Source: Planctomycetia bacterium
GTDB lineage: Bacteria > Planctomycetota > Planctomycetia > Gemmatales > Gemmataceae
NCBI GenBank assembly: GCA_005799265.1
Contig: SYHD01000065.1
Location: 1 to 64,000, forward strand
Direction of reading: 5' to 3'
DNA length: 64,000 nucleotides
Below are positions 3 to 39,789 of this stretch, piece after piece. Every line of letters starts with the position of its first letter. Position 1 is the first letter of the stretch. The notes below the pieces were generated by a model. It was not told the DNA's origin. It made no database searches and was given only the letters and a program-made list of their open reading frames with translations. Position numbers and translations under genes: made by a program.

Positions 3-132
3 GATATTTCTGAATTTTCGAGCGTGCGTGCAACCAGTACTGGTGGACGCGCCTATGAAGCAATAAATGTTGCGGCCTTTAACGCGATCTCAAAAGCGTC
101 CAAGCCAACGATTGCCGTAATCTCTGGGTTTT
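3..132 (+). pseudogene. Crotonase/enoyl-CoA hydratase-like coding fragment (no gene start in window), fused in frame to gspE
   Basis: Frame 3 from nt 3 reads [43 protein letters not shown], resembling the crotonase 'GaDisef ... kPtIAaisGf' region. G+C about 49% by eye, lower than the flanking gspE. Confidence 0.7.
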
Positions 133-2015: not shown

Positions 2016-2447
2016 ATGATGCTTCGCGAAAAACGCCAGAGCCAACGTCGCTCGGCCTTCACGCTGATGGAAATGCTCGTCGTGGTGGCCATTATCGTCG
2101 CGCTTGCCAGTATTGGCGGCTTCTTCTTGCTGCAACAGTTGGGCGACGCCAAGAAGGATCTCGCCCAAACACACATCAACGGCGTCTTGAGTCCCGCGGT
2201 AAAATCCTATTACGCCAAACGCGGCATGTGGCCGCAAGAGCTAAGGACGCTGCGCGTGAGAGATGCGGTAGGCGGTCCCTATCTGGAAAGCGATGACGCT
2301 CTATATGACCCGTGGGGCAAGGAGTATCAAATGATTCCCCAAGAAAGCCCGGACGGCTCAATCAAGACTCCGAAGATCTATTGCATCCCACCCGATGCGC
2401 AAAAAGAAAGTGATCACATCACCAATTTGCCCAAGAAAGGCACATGA
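2016..2447 (+). CDS. gspG: Major pseudopilin GspG
   Basis: Prepilin-type N-terminus AFTLMEMLVVVAIIVALASIGG and C-terminal ALYDPWGKEYQ motif. Confidence 0.93.
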   Translation: MMLREKRQSQRRSAFTLMEMLVVVAIIVALASIGGFFLLQQLGDAKKDLAQTHINGVLSPAVKSYYAKRGMWPQELRTLRVRDAVGGPYLESDDALYDPWGKEYQMIPQESPDGSIKTPKIYCIPPDAQKESDHITNLPKKGT

Positions 2448-2475
2448 ACTAACCCGCGTGCAAAACCGTGAAACC

Positions 2476-3036
2476 ATGCCAATGAAAACGAATCAGGAAC
2501 GCCTCGGCTACACGCTGATGGAGATGATGATGGTCATGGCGATCCTCGTCATCGCGGCGTCGATTTCCGTGCCGGTGATTCACTCGATGCTGGCGGACGG
2601 CCGACTATCCGCAGCGGCCGATCAGGTGCGCGCCCAACTTGCCGAGACGCGTGCCCGCGCCATGGATGAAGGTCGGCCGTGGAGGCTCGCCTACTTGCCG
2701 AACACCGGCGTCTACCAGCTCGCTCCCGAAGAGTCCACCGACTGGGAGCAAAAGTCGGACGAACCGATGGAGACGGCTGAGCTGGTTCGCGGTGTGCTGC
2801 CGAAGGACATCGTGTTTGGCGCCAAGGAAGAGGACATTTCCGGCCGGCAGGAAGCGGGCCAGGCGGGCTCAGATTGGGAAACCCTCGCGATCTACCTGCC
2901 CGGAGGAGATGCGCGCGACGACACCATGACGTATTTCGGGCACGTGGGATTCTTGCCGATGCGAGTTCAGGTTCGGGCGTTGACCGGTGCAATGAGCGTG
3001 GAGCAGGCCAAACCAAGCAACGAGGGGGGGCCATGA
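2476..3036 (+). CDS. gspH: Minor pseudopilin, GspH-like
   Basis: MPMKTNQERLGYTLMEMMMVMAILVIAASISVPV prepilin motif; position in operon. Internal ATG preferred over the ORF start at 2395. Confidence 0.8.
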   Translation: MPMKTNQERLGYTLMEMMMVMAILVIAASISVPVIHSMLADGRLSAAADQVRAQLAETRARAMDEGRPWRLAYLPNTGVYQLAPEESTDWEQKSDEPMETAELVRGVLPKDIVFGAKEEDISGRQEAGQAGSDWETLAIYLPGGDARDDTMTYFGHVGFLPMRVQVRALTGAMSVEQAKPSNEGGP

Positions 3037-3512
3037 TGGGGCGCACGGCTCGAATTCGGCCCGGCTTGACGCTCCTGGAAGTGGTCGTGTCGCTGTTCAT
3101 CTTCTTGATCGCCGTCACCGCAATCTGGCAACTCATGGCCGCCGCCACCGATCGGGCGATCGACGTGAAGCTGCAAACACAGACGAGCCTGCACTGCCAG
3201 AGCAAGCTGGCCGAGGTGATGATCGGCGATCAACCGCTCGCCAAGACGGGAGGTTATCAGCCATGGCCCGATTCGGAGGATCAGAACCTCGAATGGAAAA
3301 TGGAAGCAGACCCGGCAAAATCGAGTCAGAGCGATGTGGTTGGCTTGTGGGAAGTGAAGATCTGGGTGCGGCTGAAGACTCCGTCGGGGGGATTCGTTGA
3401 ATCGCTGCTTTCCCAGATGGTGTTGGAGCCGACGCTGCGCGGCAGCACGATGGACCGCCCAGAGCCGCCGCCGGCCCCGACGCCGACGGAAGACGAACCG
3501 GCGCCCAAGTAG
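3033..3512 (+). CDS. gspI: Minor pseudopilin, GspI-like
   Basis: MMGRTARIRPGLTLLEVVVSLFIFLIAVTAIWQLM prepilin motif; overlaps gspH stop. Confidence 0.8.
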   Translation: MMGRTARIRPGLTLLEVVVSLFIFLIAVTAIWQLMAAATDRAIDVKLQTQTSLHCQSKLAEVMIGDQPLAKTGGYQPWPDSEDQNLEWKMEADPAKSSQSDVVGLWEVKIWVRLKTPSGGFVESLLSQMVLEPTLRGSTMDRPEPPPAPTPTEDEPAPK

Positions 3513-3566
3513 CGTTCGGAAACGAGTACGCGATCACTGAGTCGCACGCGGAAAAAGGACCTCGCA

Positions 3567-4370
3567 ATGCACGCTTTACGATCACGAAAACGCCCCGCGT
3601 TTTCGCTGATGGAAATGATGCTGGCGCTCGCCATCGCCATGGTCGTTATGCTTGCGCTCTATTTGACGTTGAACGCCCAGATCACGCACAGCAACGCCGG
3701 CCGCGACGTGGTGGCGGAGGGCGCCCTGGCGCGTAACATCCTCGCCGCGATCGCCAAGGACATTAACAGTCAGCTCGCCGCCGCCGATCCGCGTTCGCTA
3801 CCTGATTACAGCGTGGTCACCGGCGAGAATCCCGGCACGGAGATCGCCACCATCGGCGCCAATCTCGGCGTGTCCGGAGACGCGACTTCGTTAGTGCTTT
3901 CCGGCCTGCGCGTGCAGAAGCCTCGCCCGGTCGCTCCGAACGCGACCGACATGAACGTCGACGCGGGCACGGACCTGCGTCGCATTGCCTACTGGATCGT
4001 CATGAACGGCAACAAGTCCCTCGGCCTGGCCCGGCATGAAACGAGGCAAGCGACCGCCAGCGAGATCGACCTGGCGCTAACCGAATTACCCGATCAAGAA
4101 AAATACGTCATCGCCAAGGAAGTGAAGACAATTCAGTTCGAGTATCACGGCGGAAACAATGCAGGGGATTGGCAGCAGTTTTGGAATGGCGCCGAGCCAA
4201 TTCTTATCGAGGAAGGAACAACTCTAGGCCCCCCGGCAGCCATCAAGATTACGCTCACGCTGAAACAGACGCTAGCCCCCGGCGCCACGGACGACGATGA
4301 CACGGGGCCCAGCTATGTCCACATCGTCGCGCTCCCCACGGGCAACAATTACCCCTTGCCCAAGAAATGA
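3567..4370 (+). CDS. gspJ: Minor pseudopilin, GspJ-like
   Basis: RPAFSLMEMMLALAIAMVVMLALYLTLNAQI prepilin motif; operon context. Confidence 0.8.
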   Translation: MHALRSRKRPAFSLMEMMLALAIAMVVMLALYLTLNAQITHSNAGRDVVAEGALARNILAAIAKDINSQLAAADPRSLPDYSVVTGENPGTEIATIGANLGVSGDATSLVLSGLRVQKPRPVAPNATDMNVDAGTDLRRIAYWIVMNGNKSLGLARHETRQATASEIDLALTELPDQEKYVIAKEVKTIQFEYHGGNNAGDWQQFWNGAEPILIEEGTTLGPPAAIKITLTLKQTLAPGATDDDDTGPSYVHIVALPTGNNYPLPKK

Positions 4371-4383
4371 CGGTCGCACGCGC

Positions 4384-5904
4384 ATGAACGCAACTCCGCC
4401 ACAATTGATTACGCCTCACGCTTCAGCCAAGAAGCGGCGCGGCGTCGTCATCGTGGCCGTGCTTGTGGTCATCGTGCTGTTGTCGTTGGCCGGCTATCAG
4501 TACGCCGACATGACGCTCGCCGAATACAAGGCGTCCGAGAATGCCCATCGGCTCGTGCAAGCACGCGCGCTCGCAGGTTCGGGCGTGCACTTCGCCATGG
4601 CGATGACAAGCAGGACTGCGAATCTCAACAACATCGAAGGCAACCTGTGGAACAATCCACTGTTCAAGGACGTGGAGTTAAAAGGAGACGACGGCAAGGT
4701 GATTGGCCGCTTCAGCCTGATCGCACCGCCCGAAGCCGACGACACGGCGGGCCAGGTGCGCTTTGGGTTGGAGTGTGAGGCCGGCAAGTTGAACCTGAAT
4801 GCAATGATGAAGCTTGATCCAACCGGCAAGACGCTGAACGGCATGCTCATGAAATTGCCGATCATGACGGCCGATATCGCCGCGGCGATCGTCGACTGGT
4901 TGGACCCCGATTCGGAGGCGAAGGCGGGCGGCGCGGAGAGTGACTATTATTCGTCTCTGAGCCCATCGTATCGCGCGCGTAACGGCCCCATCGAGAGCCT
5001 TGACGAGTTGCTCTTGGTCAAGGGGATGACGCGCGAGCTCCTGTACGGCAACGATTTGAATCGCAACGGCATCCAGGATGCCAACGAAATGAGCGACGAC
5101 GGCGGCGGCTTCAGTCGCGGTTGGTCGGCGTTGCTCACCGTGCATAGCCGAGAGCAGAACCGCGACCTGGAGAGCGGTACGCTCGTCTGGATCAACAATA
5201 CAGACCTCAAACAACTCTACGAAGGCCTGGCCCAGTACATTGGCGACGAAGAGTTGGCGAAGTTCATCGTGATGTACCGCCAATACGCCTCGGCCGATGT
5301 CGATGCCGCCCTGCCGAAAGGGACGACGATTGGGAGTCTCGCAAACTACCAAGTGAAATTCGACCGTCGGGCCGCGTACCAGGTCAATTCGATCTACGAT
5401 CTGATTGGCGTGCGCATACAGCGCGGCAAAGTAATTTACACCAGCCCGCTCAACGATCCGGCCAAGCTGAGCGAACTGCTGCCCGGCCTGCTCATGTACG
5501 GGAAGCTCGCCGACGTGCCGGAGATCGTCGCGCGCGTCAACGTCAACACGGCGCCTCGCGAAGTGCTGCTGACGATCCCCGGCTTGACCGCGGCCGACGT
5601 TGACAAGATCATGCAGACAAGGCCCCGGCTGTCCGCGACTGAGACGACGCCGGAGATTTTCGACACGCAGGCCTGGCTGGTGACCGACGCGAAATTCAGC
5701 GCCAACCAAATGCGCAGCCTCGACATGTACCTGGGCGGCACGTCGCAGGTGTACCGCGTGCAAGCAGTCGGCCAGTTGACGGGGCGCGGCCCCACGGTGC
5801 GCATCGAAGCGGTCATCGACACCAACGCAGGTCGGCCGCGCATCATCGCCTGGCGCGACCTGACCGAACTCGGCAAAGGTTTGAATGAACAACCCGCGCG
5901 TTAG
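4384..5904 (+). CDS. gspK: Type II secretion protein GspK
   Basis: N-terminal hydrophobic GVVIVAVLVVIVLLSLAGYQYA; GKLNLN, WLDPDSEA and VNVNTAPREVLLTIPGLT motifs. ATG 4384 preferred. Confidence 0.88.
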   Translation: MNATPPQLITPHASAKKRRGVVIVAVLVVIVLLSLAGYQYADMTLAEYKASENAHRLVQARALAGSGVHFAMAMTSRTANLNNIEGNLWNNPLFKDVELKGDDGKVIGRFSLIAPPEADDTAGQVRFGLECEAGKLNLNAMMKLDPTGKTLNGMLMKLPIMTADIAAAIVDWLDPDSEAKAGGAESDYYSSLSPSYRARNGPIESLDELLLVKGMTRELLYGNDLNRNGIQDANEMSDDGGGFSRGWSALLTVHSREQNRDLESGTLVWINNTDLKQLYEGLAQYIGDEELAKFIVMYRQYASADVDAALPKGTTIGSLANYQVKFDRRAAYQVNSIYDLIGVRIQRGKVIYTSPLNDPAKLSELLPGLLMYGKLADVPEIVARVNVNTAPREVLLTIPGLTAADVDKIMQTRPRLSATETTPEIFDTQAWLVTDAKFSANQMRSLDMYLGGTSQVYRVQAVGQLTGRGPTVRIEAVIDTNAGRPRIIAWRDLTELGKGLNEQPAR

Positions 5905-5975: not shown

Positions 5976-7538
5976 TTGGCATCCTGGATTGCCCTTGACT
6001 GGGATCAAGATCAGTTTCACGTCGTCGTCGCACAAACCGCGCGGCGCGGCGTGCGGGTGACGCGTGCGCTCACGTGGCCCCACCCCGAACCGTTCACCCC
6101 TTCCACGGCGGACCGGGTCGGCGCGGCTCTGCGCGGGTTTCTCGCCAGCGCGAACATCACGGCGGCTCCGGTAATCGTCGGCCTGGGGCGCGATCGCGTC
6201 TTCCTGAAAGAACTGCGTTTTCCGTCGATCGCGGCCCACGAGGAGGCGAACCTCGTGCGTTTTCAGACGGCCAAAGAGCTGACCGAATCGATCGAGAGCT
6301 ACGCCGTCGATTACGTCCATCTCAACGGCAACCAAGGTGAGCGCCAGATCATGACCGTGGCCGTGCGCCGCGACATCGTCGCCATGGTCCAAACGCTCTG
6401 CCAGTCGGCGGGGCTGAAGCTGCATGCGGTCACGCCGCGCGTGTTCGGCGTGGCGCAGGCGGTGTCGCGGGCGGTTGGGGCCAATCCAGATCCGTTGACG
6501 CCCGACCGACTCAACGTCGTGCTGGCGATCGGACAGCGTTGGGCCGAGCTTTGTTTCTTTAGGGGCGACCGTTTCTTACAGGCGCAGGCGCTGGCGAATG
6601 GGCCACTGCTGACCAGCGAAATCAAGCGCAATCTCGCGGTCTTCCAGGCCCAGCACGCAGTTAGCGTCGATCTCTCGGGACCGGACTGTCTGTATGTATT
6701 CGGCGCCAAGGGATCGGCACTCGACGCTCTGCGCGGCGGCCAGACGCTACCGGTGCAGTTATTGGATCCATTGCAGGCCGAGCCGGAATTGTCCGCCAAT
6801 TTGGCCAACACGGGCCATTTCGCCGGCGGCGTCGGCCTGGTGGCGCTGTGGTCGCAGACGGTGCAACGCCCCGCGAATCTCGCGGCGCCGAAACGCCAGT
6901 CCGCGCCGGTAAGCGCCGGCAGACAGCGTGGCATGCTCTGGGGTGCGGGGTTGGCCGTGGGTATGGTAATCTTCGTCGGCCTGCTTTGGGGCGCGCTGGC
7001 GTACAAGCGAGCGCAACTCGGCCGGCTGATCGCCGAGAAGAACGCCTTCGATGAGCAACTGGTCAAGGTCAAGCAAGATCGCGCCGACATCGAAGCGCTC
7101 AAGGATTGGGAACAGTCCACCGTATCCTGGCTTGATGAGCTACACGATCTCACCGCGCGTTTCCCATACCAAACAGGCTTTCGCGTCAACCAGTTCTCCG
7201 CCACCTCCGCGGGGACCAAGAAGAGCGCCAAGGACGGACACATTGGCAAGATTGCCATCATCGGTCTTACGCCGCCGGGCCATGAGGACTACGTCAAGCA
7301 GCTCAATCAATCGATGTCGCGCGACGCGCACGTGAAGCCGCACATCGAACGCTTCTTCGATGGGCAGAAATACGAGATGAAAATCGAGATCATCAAGCAG
7401 CCGGCGTCGAGCTATACGACGCCGTTCGGCGAGATTCCGCCGCGGCCGAGGATCGCGGCCCCAGCGCCGAAGGCGGCGCCGATCAAGCCTCCCGAAGAGA
7501 TGCCGGAAGACCCAGACGCGAAGGAGGACGGCAAATGA
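5976..7538 (+). CDS. gspL: GspL-like protein (PilM-type actin fold + TM + periplasmic part)
   Basis: TTG start with AGGAGG 8-10 nt upstream; MASWIALDWDQDQFHVVVAQ; single TM AVGMVIFVGLLWGALAYKR; ATGA overlap with the next gene. Confidence 0.75.
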   Translation: MASWIALDWDQDQFHVVVAQTARRGVRVTRALTWPHPEPFTPSTADRVGAALRGFLASANITAAPVIVGLGRDRVFLKELRFPSIAAHEEANLVRFQTAKELTESIESYAVDYVHLNGNQGERQIMTVAVRRDIVAMVQTLCQSAGLKLHAVTPRVFGVAQAVSRAVGANPDPLTPDRLNVVLAIGQRWAELCFFRGDRFLQAQALANGPLLTSEIKRNLAVFQAQHAVSVDLSGPDCLYVFGAKGSALDALRGGQTLPVQLLDPLQAEPELSANLANTGHFAGGVGLVALWSQTVQRPANLAAPKRQSAPVSAGRQRGMLWGAGLAVGMVIFVGLLWGALAYKRAQLGRLIAEKNAFDEQLVKVKQDRADIEALKDWEQSTVSWLDELHDLTARFPYQTGFRVNQFSATSAGTKKSAKDGHIGKIAIIGLTPPGHEDYVKQLNQSMSRDAHVKPHIERFFDGQKYEMKIEIIKQPASSYTTPFGEIPPRPRIAAPAPKAAPIKPPEEMPEDPDAKEDGK

Positions 7539-8812
7539 ACGCGCGCGAACGCATCCTCCTGATCGTGCTTGCGTCCATCCTGGGCGGCGGCATTCTGCTT
7601 TTCGGAACCTATCAATGGTTCTTCAAGCCGCTGCGTGAACTAGACAAAAAGATCGCTGACATGCGCGACAAGCGCAACGACGCGCACGCCCAAGTCGATC
7701 AATACCTGGAAGATCGCAAGACGCTCGAACTGGCGCGGGCCCGCAGTCTACCGGCGCACGCCGCGGACGCTGGCTTCGAATACATGACGAACTACTTGAA
7801 GCCCCTCCTGCGCGGCAGCGGACTGGATAAGGTGCAAGTTTCAAAATCCCCGACGGCAGTCGACCTCAAATTCACGCCGACGATCCCAGGCGTCAAGGTC
7901 GGGCATCAAGTAATGACCTTCCAGGTCCATGGGGAAGGAGACCTGTCGGCTCTGGTCGCCGCGCTGGAGCGACTCCAACGGACGCCCTACGAACATCGCA
8001 TCAAGAGTTTGCTGATCAATCGCGCGGATGCGGCGGCGACCTCGATGGAGCTTAACCCGAGGCTGATCATCGACATGGTGATCGAGACGCTCTTGGTGGC
8101 GAAGAACACGACGAAACCGGGCTTGCCGCCGGGCCTGGATCCGACCTGGATCGCCGTCGATCATTTCACGGCCAGGCACGGCGAGATGCCGTTGGGGTGG
8201 GGCCTGCTGGTGTCGCGGCTGGCCTTGCAGATGTCGGTGCCTCGCCCGGAAAATCGTCAATATGGCCAGGTGGCGGACAAGAACATATTCGCCGGCCTAA
8301 TTCCATACAAGGAACCGTCGCCACCCCCGCCGCCGCCACCCCCCACGCCGCCGCCCCCGCCGCCGTCGCCGAAGACTCCGCTCCTGGACGTGCCTTCCTA
8401 TGTGTGGCTGACGACGACGACCAACCAGAATGAAGCGCATCTGCGCAACATCGTTTACCGCAGTTCGCGTCCCGGCGGCGAGGAAAAGGTGATGGTGAAG
8501 CCGGGCTACGACACGTTCCAGATCGTCGATGAGGACACGGGATACTTCTTCTTCCGCGCGAAGGTGTTGCGCATCGATGACCGAGCCATGTACTTCCAGA
8601 TCAAGGACGAAGCCTTCGAATGGGAGCTGCGCAAGAACTTGGCGGACGCCATCAAACGTCCGCTGTCCGCGCCCAGGCTTGCCGCGTTGCAGTTGACGCT
8701 GAACGCCGAATGGTCAGCGGAGGAGAGTGCGAAAGACAAGGAAAACAAGAAGCCGAAGACCTCGTCGAAAAAGAGTTCCTTTTTTAAGGGACCAACCAAG
8801 ACGTCCAAGTAA
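7535..8812 (+). CDS. GspM-like protein with Pro-rich linker and a possible GspC HR-like C-terminal domain
   Basis: N-terminal TM (ILLIVLASILGGGILLFGTYQWF), coiled coil, PSPPPPPPPPTPPPPPPSP linker, then DKNIFAGL...PSYVWLTTTTNQNEAHLRNIVYR... resembling GspC/PilP HR regions. Confidence 0.6.
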   Translation: MNARERILLIVLASILGGGILLFGTYQWFFKPLRELDKKIADMRDKRNDAHAQVDQYLEDRKTLELARARSLPAHAADAGFEYMTNYLKPLLRGSGLDKVQVSKSPTAVDLKFTPTIPGVKVGHQVMTFQVHGEGDLSALVAALERLQRTPYEHRIKSLLINRADAAATSMELNPRLIIDMVIETLLVAKNTTKPGLPPGLDPTWIAVDHFTARHGEMPLGWGLLVSRLALQMSVPRPENRQYGQVADKNIFAGLIPYKEPSPPPPPPPPTPPPPPPSPKTPLLDVPSYVWLTTTTNQNEAHLRNIVYRSSRPGGEEKVMVKPGYDTFQIVDEDTGYFFFRAKVLRIDDRAMYFQIKDEAFEWELRKNLADAIKRPLSAPRLAALQLTLNAEWSAEESAKDKENKKPKTSSKKSSFFKGPTKTSK

Positions 8813-9344: not shown

Positions 9345-12300
9345 ATGAAGCTAATAAGGCGCATCGCCGTCGTCGCGCTCATGTCGGCTGGAATCTATTT
9401 GATTGGCCAGGCCGCCTCCACGTTTGCCCAGGGAACCAAAGGCGTCGATCCGAAAGCCGTGGACCCGAAGGCCGGCGACAAGAAGCCGGTTGAGCCAAAG
9501 GTCCTCCTCACGTCGTCCAAGCCGAACTGGAACGAAAAGAAGATCGCCTTCGAGATGGACAAGAAGCCGTGGGGCGCCGTCATGACCTGGTTCGCCGATC
9601 AGACGCAAATGCCATACGCCTCGCCGTACACGCCTACGGGCACGCTCACGTTCATCAATCCCAGGGACGACAAGGGCGTCGCCCGCAAGTACACCCTGAT
9701 CGAAGTCTACGACATCATCAACGAAATCCTGCAAGGCCAGCACAAATACACGATCCTGCGTGGCGACAACGTCCTGACGTTGGTCCCCGCCGATGAGCCG
9801 ATTCCGGAATTGCTTATTCCACGCGTCTCGATGGACGAGTTGAAATCGCGAGGCCGCACCGAGATCGTCGAAGTGGTCGTCGAGCCGAAGGGCCAGAACG
9901 TGGACGAATTCGCCCCCGAGTTGATCCGACTCTTGCGCCCGTTCGGTCAGGTGACGCCATTGCAGGGTTCCAACAAGCTGATTATCCGCGCGGGCGTGGC
10001 GAGCTTGCTGCGTCATGAGTCGATCATCGTCGGCAGCGAAGATGATTCCAGCGTCCACACGCACACGCACCAGTGCGAGTACATTCGGGCGAGCCAGGCG
10101 GAAGCGGTCCTGTTGCGTTCTTTGGGCTCGTTGACGCAGAACGTCGAAGTCAAGGCCGCGACGCCGATGGGCGACAGCGGCAAGGGCGGCTCTGATGGCT
10201 CGCGTCCAGGAGGCAACCAGCCCAGTACCGTCCGGCGCCTGCAGCGGCAGACCACGATCACCACGGATGAGGGAACCAACACCGTCATCATCCACGGGCA
10301 GAATGACAAGATCTCTCAAGCCAAGGCCATTCTCGTCAAGATCGACGTGCCGCGCGAGGTGGGCCAAAAGAAATACCAGATCGGGACACCGACCATCAAA
10401 TACTACGACCTGCGCGGCGGCAACGCCGAGCTTCTCGCCAAGACTCTGCAAACGGAAATCTTCAAGTCGAACGCCATCGCGCGCATCGCCGCCGAGGGGC
10501 AATCGCGTTTGTACGTTTATGCCGACCCGCAGCTGCACGCGGAGGTCAAGGAGTTCCTGTCGCGCTTCGAAGGCTCGCCGTCGGACACGCTGACGCACAA
10601 GGCCAAGTTCATGCGCGCCAGCACGCTCGAAGCCGTTCTCGTGAAAGCGCTCGGCGCTGCCATCTCGGGTCCGACCAGCGGCAGCGTCATCATGCACGAC
10701 GCCAAGGGTAAGACTCAGGGTTCCTGGTCGCTGAGCGGAAGCACGATCAACCTCAACTTTCCGGGTGGCGCCAGTTACTTCGGCGAACTCATCGACGACA
10801 GAATGTCAGGCACGGCCAAGGACGACCGGGTGGCCTGGAACTGGAAAGCCGCATTCAACGCCAAGAACCTTGTCTGGGCCGGCATTGAAGACCGTCCCGG
10901 CTACAAGGAATTGGCGTTTGAGTTTGGCGCCAAGGGCCCCGTGCCGCAAACTGGCAAACGTCCCCACACGGTCTCGTCCGATGAGGCCACCAATTCCGTG
11001 ACTGTAACAGGCTCCGTTGAGAAACTCGAGCAGTCCAGGGCGATCATCGCCAAGATGGACGCGCCTCGCTTCCAGGGGGACAAAGGCCGGATCGAAGGTC
11101 CGCCGACGATCAAGTATCACGACGTCCGCGGCGGCAATGCCGAGCAGATGATGAAGGTCCTCACCACCGAGATATTCAAGAACAACAGCGTGGTGCGGAT
11201 CTCCGTCGCCGGGCCGTCACGTTTGTTCGTCTACGCCGATCCGCAGACGCACATCGAAATCAACGAAATCATCAATGGCGACCCGCTGCCCGAGGCGAAA
11301 ACGACGTTGATCCCGTTGGTTCGGCTCGACGCCTTGAAGTTCGCCGAGCAGCTCAAGGAAATGTTCCCGAAGGAGGCGGTCCCCTATATCGGCGCCGATC
11401 CAGAAAACAACAGCCTGCGCATCCGCGGCACAGATGACCAGATCAAGGAAATCCGCACCATCATTCGGGAACTCGACGACAACCCAGCGGTGCTGGGGGG
11501 CCGTGTTCGCATGATCAACCTTGACAAGGGGAGCGCCGTGACGGTGGCCGAGGCGATCCAAATGCTCTTCCCCGAACTGCGCCCCAACGAACTCAAGATC
11601 GTGCGCCCTGGCGGCATGGATTCCCAGCCCGCGCCGAGGAAGGATCCGTTCGACATCAAGCCGGCCCTCAAGGACGAGCCCAAGAAAAAACCCGCGCCAA
11701 CGCTGCCGATGACGGACACGCAGTTTCGCCAACTCATCAAAAAAGAATTCTCGACCTCATTTCACGCCCCACAGGAGAAGGAAGCAGGGCCTGGCCCGGA
11801 AGGCAAGAAGCATCCGCCCGTGACGATCACCGCGTTCGGCAGCCGCCTGATTATCACGAGTGAAGATCCCGAAGCGATCGCCGTGGTGCAAGAGCTGATC
11901 CGCTTGCTCCTCAACACCGAGGCGGGTCCGGGAGACTTCGAGGTCGTGCGCCTCAAATACGCCAACGCCGTCGAGGTCGCCAAGGTTCTCGATGAGGCAT
12001 TCAACGGCAAAGCACAAGGCGGTGGCGGTGGCGGCGGTCGCGGTGGACCCGGCGGCGGCGGCGGCGGCGGGCTCAATATCCCAGGCATCGGCGGCATGAT
12101 GGCAGGCATGCTCGGCGTCGGTGGCGGCGGCGCAAGTTCCGGCCGCGTCGAGAACGTTCGCATCGTCGCGGACCCGGCCACCAACTCCATGCTCGTCAAG
12201 GCCAAGCCGCTCGACATGCTCACCATCCGCAGCTTGCTCCGCAACCACATCGATCGCCGCGACATCGAGAACGAAGTCGCCATCAAGACCTTTGTCATGG

Positions 12301-15300
12301 AGCCGCTCAAATATGCCTCGGTCACGGAGGTCGCGGACATCATCCGCCAACTGTACGCCGAGAACATGGTCAGCCGCACGCAGCAGTCGGGACAGTCGTC
12401 CGGGATGTCCGGCTTCATGTTCGGCGGCGGCAGTCGGCCCACGGACGGCTCAGGCACCGACCGCAGGGCAATCCTGCACATCGGCGTGGACCCGTCCAAT
12501 CGCCTGATCGTATCGGCGCCGCAGCCGCTTTTTGACGACATCGAGAAGCTCGTCAAGCAGCTCGACGTGAAGGACGCCAAGCAAGAGGTGCGCGTCGTAT
12601 CGAGCAAGGGCATCGATCCGGTCTTGTTGGAACGCGCCATCGACGCCATCCAGGGCAAGAACCCCGGCACAAGTCGGCAATCAGGCAACGGTCAGGGCTT
12701 CGGCGGCACTTCGTCCTTCGGCGGCGGAGGCTTCCGCGGCACATTCGGCGGCGGATCCCCCTTCGGCGGCAGCTCCCCCTTCGGCGGAGGAGGCGGCGGG
12801 CCAACTTTCATCATGCCAGGCGGCGGAGGCATTCCCAGTTTCACGCCAGGCGGCGGGGGAGGTGGTACTCCAAGCTTAACCCCTGGCGGCGGGGGAGGAG
12901 GCTTCCGCGGCAACGGCGGCGGAGGCGGCTCTCCAACCGGTGGAGGCAAAGGCCGAATCAGCAGGGCAGACTTCGGAGGACCGGATTTTTTCGTCTCGCG
13001 GGTCATGGATGACCCTGAAGTGTCCCCTTTCTACGATCCCGCTGAAGATCAACAACCCGCAGGCATCGGCTTCGATCGCTATCTGAAATCGGTCTGGCAG
13101 CCAATTGGTTACGAATCGCCCAATCGCTTCGTCTTCACCGCGCTGACGCAACAGCCTGACGAGGGGCAGCCGAAAGGGCCCGCCAAGAAAGCCCCCCTGG
13201 GCAAAGGCAAGGAATTGGGCGACGGCATTGTCGACGCCCCACGCCTTCCCATTGAGATCGTCCCCGTCCCCGAACTCGGCCAGCTCATCATCCGCGCCCG
13301 CAATCAGGCCGACCTCGAACGGGCCCTCGCCCTCATCGAACTTCTGCGCGAACGTGCCGAGCCCGCCCAGGTTAAGATCAAGATCATCTCCTTGCGCTTC
13401 GGCGACCCGACAAGCGTCACGAACATTCTCAACAACTTCTACGGACGGGTTAACCTTGGTCAAAACGTGATCACGATCGGTCCCGGCCGCGGCCCGGCCG
13501 GGGCGCCGGGGGCCGTGCAGCCGACCGCGCCGACCGCGCCCGGGCAGGCGCCCGCGGTCGCGCCGACCGCCACACTCGCGCCGGCGGCGCTGCCGTCGAA
13601 CATCGTTTTCATTCCCTTGACGCGCTTCGGCGCGATCCTCGTCGCCGCTCCATCGCAAGGGCGCATGGACGACATCGAAAAAATGATCTACGACCTGGAT
13701 CAGCCGCCGTCCGACGTGCATCGCGTCGTCCCCTTCACGCTCAAGCGCGCCTCGGCGCTGCGCGTCACCACCGTGCTGAACAACTTCTACGCCACGCGCT
13801 TCCCGCAGCCCGAAGCCAACCAGGTTCGCATCACCTCCGAGAACGGCTCGAACACGGTCTTCGTGCAGGCCTCGCCCGCGGACCTCGTGGAAATTCGCAC
13901 CCTCATCGAGCACATCGATAACCCTGACAACAACCAGGTCGAGCAGGAACTGCGCGTCATCAAGCTCAAGAACGCCGTCGCCACCGATCTGGCATTCCTT
14001 TTGCAAGTGTCGATCGGCAATAACACTTTGACGGTTCCGGAAGTGGGAGTCCCCGGAGCACAAGCAATTGGCGGCGGCGGCATCGGCGGCGGCGTTGGCG
14101 GGCAACAGGCCGCGTTCGGCCAGCAGATACCCTTGACCAAGGACATCAAGCTGCGCTGGTTTTTGCCGCAGAAAGACGGCAAGCCGATCGAATCGGGAAT
14201 CCTGGAGGACATACGCATCGCTCCCGACGCGCGGACCAACTCACTCGTTGTTTCCGCGCCCGCGAAGACGATGCCGATCCTGCTCGCGCTCATCAACGAC
14301 CTTGACACGCAGCCGAAAGCCACGTCGCACATCACGATTTTCAACTTGCGCACGATCGACGCTCTGCAAACGGCGACAATGCTCCAACAGCTCTTCGTCG
14401 GCACCGGCGGCGCCGGCGCGGCGGGGGCCCTGGGCGGCGCCGGCGGTCTGGGTGGCGGTGTCGGCGCCGCGGGCGCGACCCGGCCGCTCACCATGACCAT
14501 CAGCGGCACCGCACCCGACGGCGCCCCCATCATCGATCTGCGCATCACCGTCGATCAAAAGACCAACAGCCTCATCGTCGCCGGCAGCCAGAACGACGTC
14601 GATGTGGTGCAGGCTATCATCGCCCGCATCGAAGACACCGACTTCCCGCAAAGACAGAGCACCGCGGTCCGCCTGCGCAACGCCACGGCGGTCGATGTTG
14701 CCACCGCGGTTAATGACTTCGTCACCAAGATCAACACCGTTTTTACGGCGAACGGCCAGAATACGCCGTACCACATGATCGATCGCACCGTGGTCGTGAC
14801 AGCCGAGCCGGTCTCGAACTCGATCATGATTAACGCGACGCCGGAGTACTTTAACAAAATCTTGCAACTCGTCGCCCAGCTCGACACAACGCCGGCGCAG
14901 GTCGTCATCCAGGTGCTGATCACTGAGGTGTCCATGCTCGGCTCCGAGGAGTTCGGCATGGAAATCGGCTTGCAGCAACCGCTCCTGTTCCAGCGCGGCA
15001 TTCCGGGCGTGACCGGCACCGCGGGCACGGCCGCCTATCAGACGTTCACTCCGGGCTACAGCTTCAATAATCCCAATCTGACGTTTCCCGACAACGCGCT
15101 TCTTGCCCCGAGTACGGTCGGCTTTCAGGGCATCAACGACCTCGGCGTCGGCCGCGTTTCGAAGGGGGGGGGCCTAGGCGGCTTCGTCTTCACGGCCGCG
15201 AGTGATTCGGTCAGCGTCTTGATCCGCGCATTGAAGATCCAGGGGCGTCTCACGGTCTTGAGCCGGCCGCAGGTCATGACGCTGGACAAGCAAGTCGCCT

Positions 15301-16220
15301 ATCTGAACGTCGGTAAGTCGATCCCTATCCCCGGCACACCCGTGGTGACCGGCAACCTCGTCGTTCCGGCGGCGCCGACGTATCAGAACACCGGTATTAC
15401 CTTGCAAGTCACGCCGCAGATTACGCCTGATGGCCGCGTGCTCATGCGCGTCCTTCCTTCGATCTCCTCGGTGGGGGAATCGTTCAACATTGGGGCAGGC
15501 ACCACCGCGCCAGCGTTTAATCAGCAACAACTGGAAACGACGGTTGCCGCCAACGACGGCGAGACCATCATGCTGGGCGGACTGATCACCAAACGCGAAG
15601 AGAAAAACGAAAACAAGATCCCGTTCCTGGGTGATTTGCCCTTCCTCGGCGCGGCGTTTCGTTACCGCACCTACAAGAACCAGAAGACCGAGATGATCAT
15701 CATCATGACGCCGCACATCGTCCGCAACCAAGAGGAAAAGGAGCGCATCATGACCGAGGAGACTCGCCGCGTCAATTGGGCGACGGGGGACGTGATACAC
15801 CTACACGGTTCGAGTTCCGCGCCCATGTCCTTCCTGGCCCCGCCGCCCATGCCGATTCCCGAACCGCAATCGAAGGGGCCGCCCGTTCGCGTTAACCCGG
15901 CAGCGCCGGCCGAGCGCCCGCCGCAAAACATCACGCCCGTCGAAGCGCCGCTCTTGCCGCAAGCGAAGCGTACGCCGAGCGACACGAACACGCTGATGCA
16001 AAGCATCTTCGGTAAGCGGAAGGCCACGCCGTCGCAACCGTCAACCACCACGCCGAACTCGACGGCCGACTATACGACGAAGGTCCAGTATGGGCTGCCC
16101 AATCCGAGTACGCCGCCATTGCCGGAGATTATTTCGCCCGGCGTGCCCGAGCCGCCGATCCAGCCGCCGCCGTTGGGCGGGAATTTCAATGGAATCAGTC
16201 AGGGAGCGGGGAAAAGGTAG
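9345..16220 (+). CDS. gspD: Giant secretin, GspD-type, with many N-domain-like repeats (~2291 aa)
   Basis: C-terminal secretin core VVIQVLITEVSMLGSEEFGMEIG...LSRPQVMTLDKQVAYLNVG...GETIMLGGLITKREE...PFLGDLPFLGAAFRYR; repeated 'TNSLIV.A...' N-domain motifs; signal peptide MKLIRRIAVVALMSAGIYLIGQAASTFAQ. Confidence 0.92.
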   Translation: MKLIRRIAVVALMSAGIYLIGQAASTFAQGTKGVDPKAVDPKAGDKKPVEPKVLLTSSKPNWNEKKIAFEMDKKPWGAVMTWFADQTQMPYASPYTPTGTLTFINPRDDKGVARKYTLIEVYDIINEILQGQHKYTILRGDNVLTLVPADEPIPELLIPRVSMDELKSRGRTEIVEVVVEPKGQNVDEFAPELIRLLRPFGQVTPLQGSNKLIIRAGVASLLRHESIIVGSEDDSSVHTHTHQCEYIRASQAEAVLLRSLGSLTQNVEVKAATPMGDSGKGGSDGSRPGGNQPSTVRRLQRQTTITTDEGTNTVIIHGQNDKISQAKAILVKIDVPREVGQKKYQIGTPTIKYYDLRGGNAELLAKTLQTEIFKSNAIARIAAEGQSRLYVYADPQLHAEVKEFLSRFEGSPSDTLTHKAKFMRASTLEAVLVKALGAAISGPTSGSVIMHDAKGKTQGSWSLSGSTINLNFPGGASYFGELIDDRMSGTAKDDRVAWNWKAAFNAKNLVWAGIEDRPGYKELAFEFGAKGPVPQTGKRPHTVSSDEATNSVTVTGSVEKLEQSRAIIAKMDAPRFQGDKGRIEGPPTIKYHDVRGGNAEQMMKVLTTEIFKNNSVVRISVAGPSRLFVYADPQTHIEINEIINGDPLPEAKTTLIPLVRLDALKFAEQLKEMFPKEAVPYIGADPENNSLRIRGTDDQIKEIRTIIRELDDNPAVLGGRVRMINLDKGSAVTVAEAIQMLFPELRPNELKIVRPGGMDSQPAPRKDPFDIKPALKDEPKKKPAPTLPMTDTQFRQLIKKEFSTSFHAPQEKEAGPGPEGKKHPPVTITAFGSRLIITSEDPEAIAVVQELIRLLLNTEAGPGDFEVVRLKYANAVEVAKVLDEAFNGKAQGGGGGGGRGGPGGGGGGGLNIPGIGGMMAGMLGVGGGGASSGRVENVRIVADPATNSMLVKAKPLDMLTIRSLLRNHIDRRDIENEVAIKTFVMEPLKYASVTEVADIIRQLYAENMVSRTQQSGQSSGMSGFMFGGGSRPTDGSGTDRRAILHIGVDPSNRLIVSAPQPLFDDIEKLVKQLDVKDAKQEVRVVSSKGIDPVLLERAIDAIQGKNPGTSRQSGNGQGFGGTSSFGGGGFRGTFGGGSPFGGSSPFGGGGGGPTFIMPGGGGIPSFTPGGGGGGTPSLTPGGGGGGFRGNGGGGGSPTGGGKGRISRADFGGPDFFVSRVMDDPEVSPFYDPAEDQQPAGIGFDRYLKSVWQPIGYESPNRFVFTALTQQPDEGQPKGPAKKAPLGKGKELGDGIVDAPRLPIEIVPVPELGQLIIRARNQADLERALALIELLRERAEPAQVKIKIISLRFGDPTSVTNILNNFYGRVNLGQNVITIGPGRGPAGAPGAVQPTAPTAPGQAPAVAPTATLAPAALPSNIVFIPLTRFGAILVAAPSQGRMDDIEKMIYDLDQPPSDVHRVVPFTLKRASALRVTTVLNNFYATRFPQPEANQVRITSENGSNTVFVQASPADLVEIRTLIEHIDNPDNNQVEQELRVIKLKNAVATDLAFLLQVSIGNNTLTVPEVGVPGAQAIGGGGIGGGVGGQQAAFGQQIPLTKDIKLRWFLPQKDGKPIESGILEDIRIAPDARTNSLVVSAPAKTMPILLALINDLDTQPKATSHITIFNLRTIDALQTATMLQQLFVGTGGAGAAGALGGAGGLGGGVGAAGATRPLTMTISGTAPDGAPIIDLRITVDQKTNSLIVAGSQNDVDVVQAIIARIEDTDFPQRQSTAVRLRNATAVDVATAVNDFVTKINTVFTANGQNTPYHMIDRTVVVTAEPVSNSIMINATPEYFNKILQLVAQLDTTPAQVVIQVLITEVSMLGSEEFGMEIGLQQPLLFQRGIPGVTGTAGTAAYQTFTPGYSFNNPNLTFPDNALLAPSTVGFQGINDLGVGRVSKGGGLGGFVFTAASDSVSVLIRALKIQGRLTVLSRPQVMTLDKQVAYLNVGKSIPIPGTPVVTGNLVVPAAPTYQNTGITLQVTPQITPDGRVLMRVLPSISSVGESFNIGAGTTAPAFNQQQLETTVAANDGETIMLGGLITKREEKNENKIPFLGDLPFLGAAFRYRTYKNQKTEMIIIMTPHIVRNQEEKERIMTEETRRVNWATGDVIHLHGSSSAPMSFLAPPPMPIPEPQSKGPPVRVNPAAPAERPPQNITPVEAPLLPQAKRTPSDTNTLMQSIFGKRKATPSQPSTTTPNSTADYTTKVQYGLPNPSTPPLPEIISPGVPEPPIQPPPLGGNFNGISQGAGKR

Positions 16221-16443: not shown

Positions 16444-17067
16444 ATGAAGTTTCACGCACGGAGGATCTGCCATCGCCTGTTCTGCCTGTCGCTCGGCGTC
16501 CTGGCCGTGGCGCCGGTTTCCGGCTGCACCGCGTTTCAACAGCTAAGCACCAAAAATTGGCTCGACGCCAGCTGGTTCGAGGGCGATTCGGCGAAGCCCG
16601 CCAGCCAGGTCCTGACACGCTGGGATAATCGCGTTCGCATCACCGAAAACAGCCAGGCGGCCGGCGCTCCCCTTACGGGCTTGGCCGGCCGCGTCTATTT
16701 CTTCAACGAAGACATCAAGAAAGCGGTGGATGCCAACGGGTTCATCCTCGTGCAGATGTATGACATGACGGAGATACGCCCGGGCGTTCCACCGAAAAAA
16801 CTCGCCGTGTGGCAGTTCGACCCGCACAGCCTGAAACGCCTGAAGGGAGAGGATGTCGCCGGGCCGAACTACACGCTCTTTTTGCCGTGGGAGGAATATG
16901 ATCCCGCCGTCAAGAAGGTGCAGCTACAGGTCTCCTACTATCCGCTTCGGGGCACGCCTTATTACACCAATCCGCAGATGCTGACCTTGCAACCAGACGA
17001 TGCCCCGACGCCGACGATCGTCGGACGCCAGATCACGCCGGCGTCGCACCAGACGCCCGCGAAATAG
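16444..17067 (+). CDS. Lipoprotein of unknown function next to gspD
   Basis: MKFHARRICHRLFCLSLGVLAVAPVSGC lipobox; 207 aa. ORF start 16090 overlaps gspD and is rejected. Confidence 0.7.
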   Translation: MKFHARRICHRLFCLSLGVLAVAPVSGCTAFQQLSTKNWLDASWFEGDSAKPASQVLTRWDNRVRITENSQAAGAPLTGLAGRVYFFNEDIKKAVDANGFILVQMYDMTEIRPGVPPKKLAVWQFDPHSLKRLKGEDVAGPNYTLFLPWEEYDPAVKKVQLQVSYYPLRGTPYYTNPQMLTLQPDDAPTPTIVGRQITPASHQTPAK

Positions 17068-17132: not shown

Positions 17133-20100
17133 TTACTTTCGCTCCCCCTTGTCCTCGCCGCGTTCGGCCGCGCGCCAGAAGCGGATCGTGCCGTCGTTGC
17201 CGGCGGAGACGAGAAACGACTGATCGGGAGCGATCAAGAGGGCGCGCACCGGGCCAACGTGCCCCGTCAAGGTGAGGCTCTCGCTCAGGCCGTCGTAGAA
17301 CTGGATCGCCCCGTCGGCGCCCGCGGACACGAACAGCCCAGAGTCCTTTTGGTTAAATCCCACCGCGGTGACGGGCTGCACGTGTGCCCGGAAGTGGCGG
17401 CGTCTCTCTTGCGATTCGATCTTCCCCTGGTCGCCCTTGTTGATGTCCCAGACACAGACCGCTTGATCGGCGCCGCCCGTCAAGAGGCGGTCGAATTGCT
17501 CCCCTTTCACCTGCGGCGATGGCATGAACGCAAGTGCCTCGATCGCGTTCAGGTGCAAGTCCGTCGCGACCCAGACCGCGCCGCGCACGTTGGTGTCGTA
17601 GATGCACATCAGCGCGTCCTTGCCGCCCGAGGCGAACGCCTTGCCGTCCCCCTGGAACGCGACCGAGCGCACCTCGTCCTTGTGCTTGAAGTAGGTTTCC
17701 ACTTCCACGGCCTTGTCGATGTCCCATAGCTTCACGGACGTGTCGGCGCTGCCGGACACGAGCAAGTCGGGTCTGTCGGCAGACGGATTGAAAGCGAGGC
17801 AGGTGACGCCCTTTTTGTGCTTCGTGAAGGCGGCCCTCAGCTCGATGGCATGTTCCTTTTTGGGATCGATCTGGTAGATCTTGATCTCTCCTTCATTCTT
17901 GTCGTTGCGCGTCCCGACGGCGAGCATCGTCTTGTCTTTGTGGCTGGACAGCGCGACCGCCGTGATGGGCTCTTTGAGCAACGACAACTCCTTGAGCAGC
18001 TTGCCCGTCGCGGAATCCCATAGCTTGACGGAGCCATCGCGCGCGGCCGAAGCGAGCAAGGAACCCTTGGAATCAAGAGCGAGGCACTGAATGGCATCGA
18101 GGTGCGCCTTGGCGATGATGTCCGGGCCGGAGGATTGCGCGGGGTTCCAGGCCTTGCCCGTGCCATCGTGGCTGCCGGAAACGAGGACCGAGCCGTCACC
18201 CGCGAACGCCAGCGCGTTGACGTAGCCGAGATGGCCGATCCAGCGGTGCAATTGCTTGCCCGTGGCGACGTCGAAGAGACGCACGATGTGATCCTTGCCG
18301 GCGCAGGCGACTGTTTTTCCGTCAGGCCCGAAAGCGACCGCGAGCATCCCCGTGCTCTGCAGTTCAAGAAGCGACGGGATCTGCTTGCCGGAGAGGAGCT
18401 CCCAAAATTCGGCCCGACCCAGCTCTGAAGTGCCTCCGCTCGAACTCGGTAGGTTGCTGGCGGTGCAGAGGGTCTTGCCGTCCGGAGAGATGCTGATCGC
18501 GCGGATGACTCGAAATTGCGCGGCAACATGGATTTTATTGCCTGTCTCCGCATTCCACACGATCGCCCCGTCGGCGCCGGCGCTGACAAGCCTCCAGTCG
18601 GGCGTGAACGCGACGGCATGAACGACGCCGGCTTCCTTCAGCGTGTGCGCCGCCTCGCCTTTGCCGATGTCCCAGAGGATAACGGTCTTGTCGGCCCCGC
18701 CCGAGGCGAGCGTGTTCGCGTCCTTTCCGTAGGCTAGCGCGTTGATGGCGTCGGTGTGGCCCTTGAGCGTCTTGGCTTCCTTCTTGATCTCGACGTAATC
18801 GGTCTTCAGCGTGCTCAGGTCCCAAAGGTAGACGAGCTTATCGGCGCCGGCGGAGGCGAGCGTCTTGCCGTCCGGCGCGAAGGCGACGGCGTGCACGGGC
18901 GTCTTGGCTCCGGTCAAGAGTGCGACGATCTCGCCGTTCTTCAGGTTCCAGACACGCACGGTCCCGTCGATGCTCCCCGTCGCGGCTCGCTCATTGTCGC
19001 GTGCGATCGCCACCGAGGTGACATGACTCTGGTGTCCAAACAGAAGAAAGCGTTCGCTGTTCAGCACTTTCTTGAAGTGATACCATTCGAAAGTGCGCAC
19101 ATCCGGATACGGAAACACACGTTGGTCGACGTCGGCGTGCGACTGCATCGCCGGCGCCTCCATCAGGATCTGTTGGGCCCGCAAAGCGTTCTCGGCGTGC
19201 AGGGCCTGCTGGACGCGCGCAAGCTGTCCATAGTAGAGAGGACGACGCGCGGCCTGGGCATGAAATCGGCGTTTTTCGATCTCGATCTGACGCAGGATTT
19301 TCTTTTCCAATTCCGGGGTTATCTCGACGTCTTCGCGAACGCCCGCCGTGAAATTCCTCGTCGCCCAGAACGTGACCGCCGCCGCAAGAAACATGAGCGG
19401 AACCATGATCCACAGGACATCGATCACTTTGCCGCGCGTGATTTTTTGCAGGTCCTGTTCCGCCTCGACGCGTTTGCCGACCTGGGCCAGGCTGTCTTGC
19501 GGCAAGCTGACGTAGATCTCCTCCTGGCCGCCTATCAAGAGTTGCTGAATCTCGAAGAGCCCTTCATCGTCGGCGGCGCGATTCACAATCGCCTCGACGG
19601 GTTCACTCGAATTCTTCCACAGGTTCTTAAGGTTGGCTGCCGGCACAAGGTCGCGGCTAAGCGTCCCATCAGCATGACTGGTGGTCAACTTACCGATCAG
19701 CTCGCGCAGCGCCCCCTTCGACGCATTGCCGACGTCAAGTCGTTTCAGCTTCAGGTCGAGGCACTTCGCGAGAGCCTCCCTGACGCCGCCGAATTGCTTT
19801 GTGTCTTCGTAGCGGACGACGTTTTGCTTCATCTCGACGACCTGGCGCTCGTAGAGCAGCGTGCCGACCGCTTGCAGGATCGGCAACGGGCTAAGCCGGG
19901 CACTGTCGGCGGCGGCAATGGCGTCGGCGACGACGCGCTCGGCCATGCCGTCCTCGAACGCAAAACCGTAGGTCGTGAAGGGCACCTCGTCGGTGTAGGG
20001 AATCCCATCGCGATTGGTCGGCCATAGCAGCGCGCTCGCCATTTCTTCCGCGTTCAAGGGACGCAGGAAAAACGTGGGCCAGTCGGCCGGCGCCTGCCCG

Positions 20101-21914
20101 TTGTGCATCAGGCTGACGAGTTGGCCGAGTGATTGCGAACGCAGCGCCAGTACGATCTTGCAGCGCGGCGCCGCCTGCGCGAGGTGTTGCAGCATCGCCA
20201 GCGCCTTCTGTCGGCGAACGCGCTGCTGATCACGCCGCACCAAGGTAATAAGCTCTTCGCCTTGATCGATGACGATCAACAACTCGAAGGGAAGCGAGCG
20301 CGTCACGGCATCGAGCACACGTGCAAGAGTCGCCTTGTCGTCGCGCAGGGCAATCCACAGATCGCGTGCGGCCAACCCCTCCGCCGGCGGCGCTGGTTCA
20401 GCGTTGATCGCGGCGGCGGCCGACGCATCCTGGATGGCGGTGCTCGGTTTGCTTGGCCTGGGCATGCCGGTCACTGCCTGATGCAGAAGATTCGGCAAAT
20501 CGACCGTCACGGCCGCGCCCGCCGGCGTCGTGTAGATGAACGGTCGAGCACAGAAGACCGCCAACGCATCGGCGAACTGGCCGGCGAGATCATGTGTCGC
20601 GCGCAGGATGAGACGCGGATAGTCCTTCTCCTCAGCGGGCGTCTCCTGCAAAGAACGATCGCGCAACGCCAAATAGCCGACGTTTTCTTGCTCGAGATGC
20701 GGAAGCAGCGCCGCTTGCAGGAACGACGTCTTACCGACCGCCGGCGAACCGTGCAAGAAAATGCCGCGCGCATCGGCGGCGTCCAGCGTCGCCGCCGCGC
20801 GGGCCACGTCGATGTCGCGCCCAAGAAAGAGCGAGCGATCCGCGGCGTCATAGGCGGCAAAGGGAAAAAACGGCTTGCCCGGCAAGGGGTTCGTCTCGAT
20901 CGCCATTTCGGCCGAGGCGGATTCATTGCCGACATGCATTTGCACCGGGCAGAAGCCACTGAACGCCAAGCCGGCGGCGCCGTGTTCTTGTCGCAGCGCC
21001 CGCAAAATCTCACCGAGGTTGTTCTTCCCCTCGGCCAAACGCTGTGCGAGTGCGGACCCGACCTTGAATGCCTGCGGCGCCGGCAGCAATGACTCGTTCG
21101 CAATCAGCCCGCCGAAGCGCGCGCTGGCTTCCTCCAGCATCCTGAGCCAACTCGCTTGCCCCTCGGCTGCGCCCGCCGCCATCAAGATGACGATCGGCTC
21201 CGGGTTGCCCTCCTTGGCTTCGTCGAGCCAGCCGCGCAACTCGCCTAGATCGAGCGCGTCACTGCCGAGCCAAAGTTGCCCCTCGGCCCACGGCAGCAAG
21301 AGCAATAGCACGTCGGGGCCGCGATTCTTGAGTTCATCTTCCAGCGAGGTAATGGTGTGGATGAGCTGATTCCCCTCGCGCATCGAGATCGCTTGCTCGT
21401 GCTGGGCCGGGTCGAGTTGCCCCATGAGCCGGAGGTCCGCCGCGCAGAGGCGCGTCGATAGCGTGAGCGTAGGATTGGCCCACAGTGCATTGACGCGCCG
21501 GCCGGCGCCGAGATTGAAACGCACGCCCCAGAAACGCGACCAAAGATCGCCGGTGGAGGGAACATCGTCGCACAGCAGGTTCCACGGAATCAAGCCGGGA
21601 CGATCGCTGAGGAATTGCAACTGCTCGACGGCGTTCTCGCGCACCAGCTTGGCAAGCCAGGTCTGAACCGCGCTTGCGGAACTGGCGTCCGCGCTATCCA
21701 AACGAAAGAGGGCGCGCCAGAGTGCGTGCCCAAGTTGCGCCAGCTCGGAAGCGGATGCGCCCGCGAGCTGCGCATGAAGCTGCTCGGCGATCTGCAACAG
21801 GCGCGCACGCTCGACGCCGTCCAGGCGATAGGGTTCGAACGCGGCCGTGCCTTCCGACCAAAGAAACGTGATGCTGTCCACCCGATGGAGAACTTGACAA
21901 ACAATACGAGCCAC
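17133..21914 (-). CDS. CHAT-like N-terminal region + STAND/AAA NTPase + TM + C-terminal WD40 repeats (1593 aa)
   Basis: Walker A GSPAVGKTSFLQ, Walker B-like ELLIVIDQGEEL, TM VLWIMVPLMFLAAAVTFWA, many '...V.AVAFAPDGKTLASAGADKLVYLWDL' repeats. Confidence 0.85.
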   Translation of the reverse strand: MARIVCQVLHRVDSITFLWSEGTAAFEPYRLDGVERARLLQIAEQLHAQLAGASASELAQLGHALWRALFRLDSADASSASAVQTWLAKLVRENAVEQLQFLSDRPGLIPWNLLCDDVPSTGDLWSRFWGVRFNLGAGRRVNALWANPTLTLSTRLCAADLRLMGQLDPAQHEQAISMREGNQLIHTITSLEDELKNRGPDVLLLLLPWAEGQLWLGSDALDLGELRGWLDEAKEGNPEPIVILMAAGAAEGQASWLRMLEEASARFGGLIANESLLPAPQAFKVGSALAQRLAEGKNNLGEILRALRQEHGAAGLAFSGFCPVQMHVGNESASAEMAIETNPLPGKPFFPFAAYDAADRSLFLGRDIDVARAAATLDAADARGIFLHGSPAVGKTSFLQAALLPHLEQENVGYLALRDRSLQETPAEEKDYPRLILRATHDLAGQFADALAVFCARPFIYTTPAGAAVTVDLPNLLHQAVTGMPRPSKPSTAIQDASAAAAINAEPAPPAEGLAARDLWIALRDDKATLARVLDAVTRSLPFELLIVIDQGEELITLVRRDQQRVRRQKALAMLQHLAQAAPRCKIVLALRSQSLGQLVSLMHNGQAPADWPTFFLRPLNAEEMASALLWPTNRDGIPYTDEVPFTTYGFAFEDGMAERVVADAIAAADSARLSPLPILQAVGTLLYERQVVEMKQNVVRYEDTKQFGGVREALAKCLDLKLKRLDVGNASKGALRELIGKLTTSHADGTLSRDLVPAANLKNLWKNSSEPVEAIVNRAADDEGLFEIQQLLIGGQEEIYVSLPQDSLAQVGKRVEAEQDLQKITRGKVIDVLWIMVPLMFLAAAVTFWATRNFTAGVREDVEITPELEKKILRQIEIEKRRFHAQAARRPLYYGQLARVQQALHAENALRAQQILMEAPAMQSHADVDQRVFPYPDVRTFEWYHFKKVLNSERFLLFGHQSHVTSVAIARDNERAATGSIDGTVRVWNLKNGEIVALLTGAKTPVHAVAFAPDGKTLASAGADKLVYLWDLSTLKTDYVEIKKEAKTLKGHTDAINALAYGKDANTLASGGADKTVILWDIGKGEAAHTLKEAGVVHAVAFTPDWRLVSAGADGAIVWNAETGNKIHVAAQFRVIRAISISPDGKTLCTASNLPSSSGGTSELGRAEFWELLSGKQIPSLLELQSTGMLAVAFGPDGKTVACAGKDHIVRLFDVATGKQLHRWIGHLGYVNALAFAGDGSVLVSGSHDGTGKAWNPAQSSGPDIIAKAHLDAIQCLALDSKGSLLASAARDGSVKLWDSATGKLLKELSLLKEPITAVALSSHKDKTMLAVGTRNDKNEGEIKIYQIDPKKEHAIELRAAFTKHKKGVTCLAFNPSADRPDLLVSGSADTSVKLWDIDKAVEVETYFKHKDEVRSVAFQGDGKAFASGGKDALMCIYDTNVRGAVWVATDLHLNAIEALAFMPSPQVKGEQFDRLLTGGADQAVCVWDINKGDQGKIESQERRRHFRAHVQPVTAVGFNQKDSGLFVSAGADGAIQFYDGLSESLTLTGHVGPVRALLIAPDQSFLVSAGNDGTIRFWRAAERGEDKGERK

Positions 21915-39692: not shown

Positions 39693-39710
39693 TACCTGCA
39701 CTATCGATCA

Positions 39711-39752: not shown

Positions 39753-39789
39753 GCATTGCCGCGGCTGCTCCGAACGATACTCTTTCCGC

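Follow-up and report, generated by a model that had tools for sequence, protein, structure and literature searches.

A giant GspD-type secretin with a multiplied array of N-domains in the planctomycete family Gemmataceae

A Gemmataceae contig (GCA_005799265.1, SYHD01000065.1), of which we analyzed positions 1 to 64,000 (the window), encodes a giant secretin in a type II secretion (T2SS) operon. Canonical GspD has the domains N0-N3 and about 650 aa; the protein described here has 2291 aa. We consider it probable that this is a real type II secretin in which the number of rings has been multiplied by tandem duplication, lengthening the periplasmic channel.

Domain architecture and predicted fold

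The protein is encoded by a single intact ORF at 9345-16220 (+), with an ATG at 9345, a stop at 16218-16220 and no internal stops. Pfam searches returned one match to the Secretin core PF00263 (E 5e-46; 156.8 bits vs. a cut-off of 27.5) and 10 significant Secretin_N stretches (E 2e-97). A purpose-built N-domain HMM of 64 positions, made from relatives, detected 12 domains at E<0.01, while a further three scored weakly (N1, E 2.8; N7, E 0.87; N10, E 8.7). The three weak units show a beta-alpha-beta-beta-alpha order in AlphaFold models, and it is mainly on these predictions that we count them as N-domains. With the HMM and AlphaFold taken together, the total is N0 plus 15 N1-type domains (16 N-domains) and one secretin core. 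As controls, the HMM gave exactly three matches in E. coli K-12 GspD (N1, N2 and N3), no match at E<1 in any of 50 shuffled versions of the giant sequence, and 0-1 matches in each of two normal-length secretins from the same genome. An earlier, sequence-only reading had proposed one secretin core near the C-terminus preceded by many N1-like units, which Pfam and the HMM bear out. Its ‘roughly a dozen’ N-like repeats captured the multiplied array, although the count was somewhat low, and the domain search did not reduce the protein to 3-4 N-domains with a disordered remainder. The domains are placed as follows.

9345-16220 (+): gspD, giant type II secretion secretin, 2291 aa; signal peptide, N0, 15 N-domains, secretin core
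9345-9431 (+): signal peptide MKLIRRIAVVALMSAGIYLIGQAASTFAQG, residues 1-29; hydrophobic N-terminus ending in AQG
9555-9788 (+): N0, residues 71-148; AlphaFold with high pLDDT, Foldseek to XcpQ/GspD N0-N1-N2
9864-10031 (+): N1, residues 174-229; weak HMM match, beta-alpha-beta-beta-alpha in AlphaFold
10056-10343 (+): N2, residues 238-333, first copy of a duplicated unit; AlphaFold, HMM
10398-10574 (+): N3, residues 352-410, first copy of a duplicated unit; HMM E 1.6e-11, similarity to N5
10584-11057 (+): N4, residues 414-571, second copy of N2 with a ~95-aa insert; HMM
11106-11279 (+): N5, residues 588-645, second copy of N3; AlphaFold, HMM
11298-11477 (+): N6, residues 652-711; AlphaFold, HMM
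11505-11915 (+): N7, residues 721-857; weak HMM match, AlphaFold supported
11937-12251 (+): N8, residues 865-969, Gly-rich internal loop; Pfam, AlphaFold, HMM
12285-12563 (+): N9, residues 981-1073; AlphaFold, HMM
12585-13358 (+): N10, residues 1081-1338, ~200-residue loop; weak HMM match, AlphaFold supported
13374-13697 (+): N11, residues 1344-1451; AlphaFold, HMM
13725-13919 (+): N12, residues 1461-1525; AlphaFold, HMM
13944-14303 (+): N13, residues 1534-1653; AlphaFold, HMM
14328-14636 (+): N14, residues 1662-1764; AlphaFold, HMM
14655-14888 (+): N15, residues 1771-1848, counterpart of canonical N3 beside the barrel; AlphaFold, HMM
14898-15806 (+): secretin beta-barrel core and C-terminal helices, residues 1852-2154; Pfam Secretin, Foldseek to GspD

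The N-terminal and C-terminal halves were modeled separately with AlphaFold, and mean pLDDT was modest (61 and 57). Confidence is poor at residues 265-540, a window-specific duplication region where no relative aligns; N3 has low pLDDT, so its assignment is based on the HMM and its likeness to N5. The top Foldseek match of the N-terminal half was N0-N1-N2 of XcpQ/GspD (E 6e-8) and that of the C-terminal half was GspD (E 4.6e-30).

Gly-rich stretches of up to ~100 residues form loops within N-domains, between helix 1 and strand 2. We rejected their reading as disordered inter-domain spacers, since both AlphaFold and the linker analysis place them inside N-domains. One Gly/Phe-rich stretch (residues 1103-1205; 12651-12960) lies within the N10 loop, whose Gly-rich character is conserved in Gemmataceae and not in another Planctomycetia family (f5). 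An FG-nucleoporin-like barrier in this loop was also rejected (six FG pairs vs. 4.8 expected, p 0.30), FG pairs exceeding composition only in some relatives and not in the window GspD.

Operon context and assignment to GspD

The genes around gspD are those of a T2SS operon, which is kept in most Gemmataceae loci and partly in the other families read.

24-572 (+): gspE, C-terminal fragment, 5' end cut by the contig start; Pfam T2SSE
737-1945 (+): gspF; Pfam T2SSF, TIGR02120 below cut-off
2016-2447 (+): gspG-like major pseudopilin; Pfam T2SSG over cut-off
2395-4370 (+): three minor pseudopilin genes with uncertain starts, the last GspJ-like; N-methylation motifs
4297-5904 (+): gspK-like; Pfam T2SSK_1st, NF037980
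5976-7538 (+): PilM/GspL-like inner-membrane platform protein; weak PilM matches, adjoins gspD in relatives too
7535-8812 (+): GspM/PilO-like 425-aa protein; position, alignment across relatives
16477-17067 (+): small lipoprotein gene directly downstream of gspD; same place in most relatives

In tblastn searches the order gspK, PilM/L-like gene, 425-aa gene, gspD and lipoprotein gene recurs in most Gemmataceae loci; matches to the 425-aa protein are missing at some of them, as expected given its 19-41% identity. In this GspM-like protein, a membrane segment at the N-terminus is followed by a coiled-coil and PilO/GspM-like part, then by a linker rich in Pro and, at the C-terminus, by a small beta domain. 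By eye, the beta domain looks GspC-HR/PilP-like; the protein has no Pfam match, and a PDB profile search yielded nothing credible for a GspC-HR/PilP domain. A separate gspC was not seen in the operon, whose gspE runs off the contig end. Most Gemmataceae loci have the lipoprotein gene directly after gspD, as do many loci from other Planctomycetia; its product has no family match and is, by position only, a pilotin candidate.

The giant protein scores 482.6 against the GspD model TIGR02517 (cut-off 351.4) over its full length, to which the repeats add. The C-terminal 631 aa alone score 288.4 bits, which is below that cut-off and is the best score among all secretin families (PilQ, 184.0). The PilQ model TIGR02515 stays below its own cut-off even at full length (242.5 vs. 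284.35). A secretin barrel, N0 followed by N1-type domains and a T2SS operon are all present, while the usual GspD layout of about four N-domains (N0-N3) is replaced by one of 16. PilM-like and GspM/PilO-like genes precede gspD, yet they do so alongside gspF, gspG and gspK. The protein is best filed as a GspD variant rather than a canonical member; domain, fold and operon evidence thus agree with the earlier proposal of a GspD-type secretin with multiplied N-domains.

Two other genes in the window encode a 1593-aa protein that combines a novel-STAND NTPase domain with a large array of WD40 repeats (17133-21914, -), and a deoxyhypusine synthase family protein (39679-40917). Deoxyhypusine synthase is better known from eukaryotes and archaea.

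Distribution, length series and growth of the array

Named relatives place the host of the window GspD in the Gemmataceae. Within this family, a profile of N12-N15 matched 71 of 95 genomes and 32 of 39 genera, several genera lacking the giant protein in this search, and 53 genomes have frames of 1896-2442 aa, closed one-contig genomes among them. Twenty relatives align nearly end to end; those from the order share 32-50% identity, those from family f5 26-27%. Order-mates have versions of 1893-1937 aa and most other Planctomycetia families versions of 1170-1516 aa, while family f5 has frames of 3269-3270 aa with 28-29 N-domains at E<0.01 (20-21 stretches by Pfam).

Frames are longer still (3109-5088 aa) in four families of other classes of the phylum (f22, f65, f74 and f77), possibly Phycisphaerae. 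Twelve giant GspDs from these classes (3103-5016 aa) have 30-51 N-domain matches at E<1 and 26-48 at E<0.01, and in two of them Pfam counts 41 and 40 Secretin_N stretches. All twelve have a C-terminal secretin core, with a signal peptide and N0-like start where inspected. Upstream of them, the gene content is similar to that in the window (PilM-like and GspM-like, the latter often with a poly-Pro stretch), with pseudopilin and GspK-like genes also upstream where the locus extends far enough. Frame length ranges from ~3100 to 5090 aa within family f74 alone, in which some genera lack a giant frame. We found no published description of giant planctomycete secretins in the open-licence literature; an earlier description elsewhere is possible.

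A second, different long-frame secretin occurs in the same genome as a 709-aa ORF in the stretch analyzed, with a weaker Secretin match (E 2.7e-22). Relatives hold frames of 1400-2200 aa with a similarly weak match.

Within the window GspD, N2-N3 (residues 238-410) and N4-N5 (414-645) are tandem copies that match at 50% of positions over 107 aa. None of the 20 aligned relatives has the extra copy, not even those of the same genus. At only ~50% identity to each other, the copies are too different to be an assembly repeat. This duplication shows how N-domain units get added. The remaining units share a median identity of only ~17% over the beta-beta-alpha half, so the array as such is old.

The ~95-aa insert in N4 (residues 441-535; 10665-10949) is seen in the window copy only. 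It resembles a small beta domain, has no Pfam match, and has one weak match elsewhere in the genome (E 0.006).

A proposed long channel, alternatives and known systems

Solved secretins have one stacked ring per N-domain, and Thermus PilQ, with six rings (N0-N5) measuring 350 A, spans a wide periplasm (PMC5745081). Solved GspD entries in the PDB contain 15 chains. We propose that ~15 subunits of the giant GspD would assemble into an outer-membrane barrel of the normal, gated type, with a stack of 16 rings extending from it through the periplasm. N0, located at the inner membrane, would bind the platform there, probably via the GspM-like protein with its Pro-rich linker, and the pseudopilus and exoproteins would travel inside the long sleeve. 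Ring number would set channel length, such that gain or loss of N-domains could fit the machine to a wide membrane-to-membrane distance. Multimer symmetry, the stacking of every unit, total length, the N0 partner and the fit to the periplasm are all inferred. At an assumed pitch of 25-43 A per ring, 16 rings and the barrel would measure roughly 50-78 nm, and 15 copies (assumed symmetry) of the 241-kDa mature chain would amount to 3.6 MDa. By analogy with solved secretins, a much longer periplasmic channel than that of canonical GspD is likely. It is also plausible that the protein is fitted to an enlarged periplasm, as the phylum has been described as having a periplasm that is enlarged and variable in width (PMC5394234).

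A broader proposal, which we offer tentatively and at somewhat less than even odds, is that the number of secretin rings serves Planctomycetota as an adjustable ruler: with ~7 to ~50 rings, the channels would match periplasms that are wide or vary in width, and might hold the two membranes together at fixed sites. If this were true, no other known protein-conducting channel would come close to these in length (tens to >100 nm), and with its series from ~7 to ~50 N-domains GspD would offer a natural experiment in the adaptation of a machine to membrane spacing. The giant GspD would also tie a known machine, concretely and in a testable way, to the planctomycete cell plan, with its enlarged and variable periplasm and its crateriform contact sites, and would raise the question of how the pseudopilus and substrate cross so long a channel.

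It is also conceivable, though in our view unlikely, that rings are formed by just the last few N-domains and that the rest serve as a flexible periplasmic tether, with which N0 could reach an inner membrane lying at a variable distance. The varying width of the planctomycete periplasm (PMC5394234) would suit a tether, as would the long Gly-rich stretches, and straight stacks of ~50 rings in relatives seem too long. By the same pitch arithmetic such stacks would reach 140-230 nm, which is large for these small cells; a sleeve of this length would be hard to fit in, and full stacking in the longest relatives is therefore doubtful. However, the Gly-rich stretches sit inside N-domains, every unit retains the N-domain fold, and inter-domain linkers vary little across 26-48 junctions, with a median of ~5 aa (vs. 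~3 aa in E. coli GspD), short uniform linkers being seen also in proteins with up to 51 units. Because the linkers are short and uniform, tight stacking appears to fit better than a loose tether; on sequence grounds, linkers near 5 aa favor stacked rings.

Secretin multimers resist SDS. Crateriform structures (outer-membrane pits linked to the inner membrane, with pili-like fibres emerging) are still visible in walls boiled in 10% SDS (PMC5287468), and the giant secretin might form their core, a reading to which we assign a low probability. They are joined to the inner membrane, which they seem to keep close to the wall (PMC5394234); in Gemmata they have ~35 nm openings at 50-100 per um2 (PMC3660258). 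They resemble the proposed machine in being repeated envelope complexes that join outer and inner membranes and from which fibres emerge (PMC5394234). However, at 12-20 nm a secretin is not as wide as a 35 nm pit, we found no proteomic evidence for a link, and described Phycisphaeraceae are without such structures (PMC8882080), while the longest secretins are in other classes, possibly Phycisphaerae. The link of the giant GspD to crateriform structures is therefore weak.

That fused genes, collapsed repeats, indels or frameshifts gave an over-long ORF is very improbable and was rejected: although the window comes from a fragmented assembly (372 contigs, 87% complete), colinear intact frames of similar length occur in the 53 Gemmataceae genomes, closed ones included, and relatives from the family align almost from end to end at 32-50% identity.

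The giant protein has its best fold and sequence matches in GspD/PulD/XcpQ (TIGR02517; PDB 6hcg, 5zdh, 5wq7), with which it shares a signal peptide, N0, KH-like N1-type domains, the barrel and a T2SS operon. Unlike these proteins, it has N0 plus 15 further N-domains rather than N0-N3, 2291 aa rather than ~650, long Gly-rich loops in several N-domains and no separate gspC seen. The PilQ of Thermus thermophilus, a 757-aa secretin for type IV pili and DNA uptake, likewise has additional stacked N-domain rings (six, N0-N5) in a bacterium with a wide periplasm (PMC5745081), whereas the giant GspD has 16 N-domains and is encoded in a T2SS operon.
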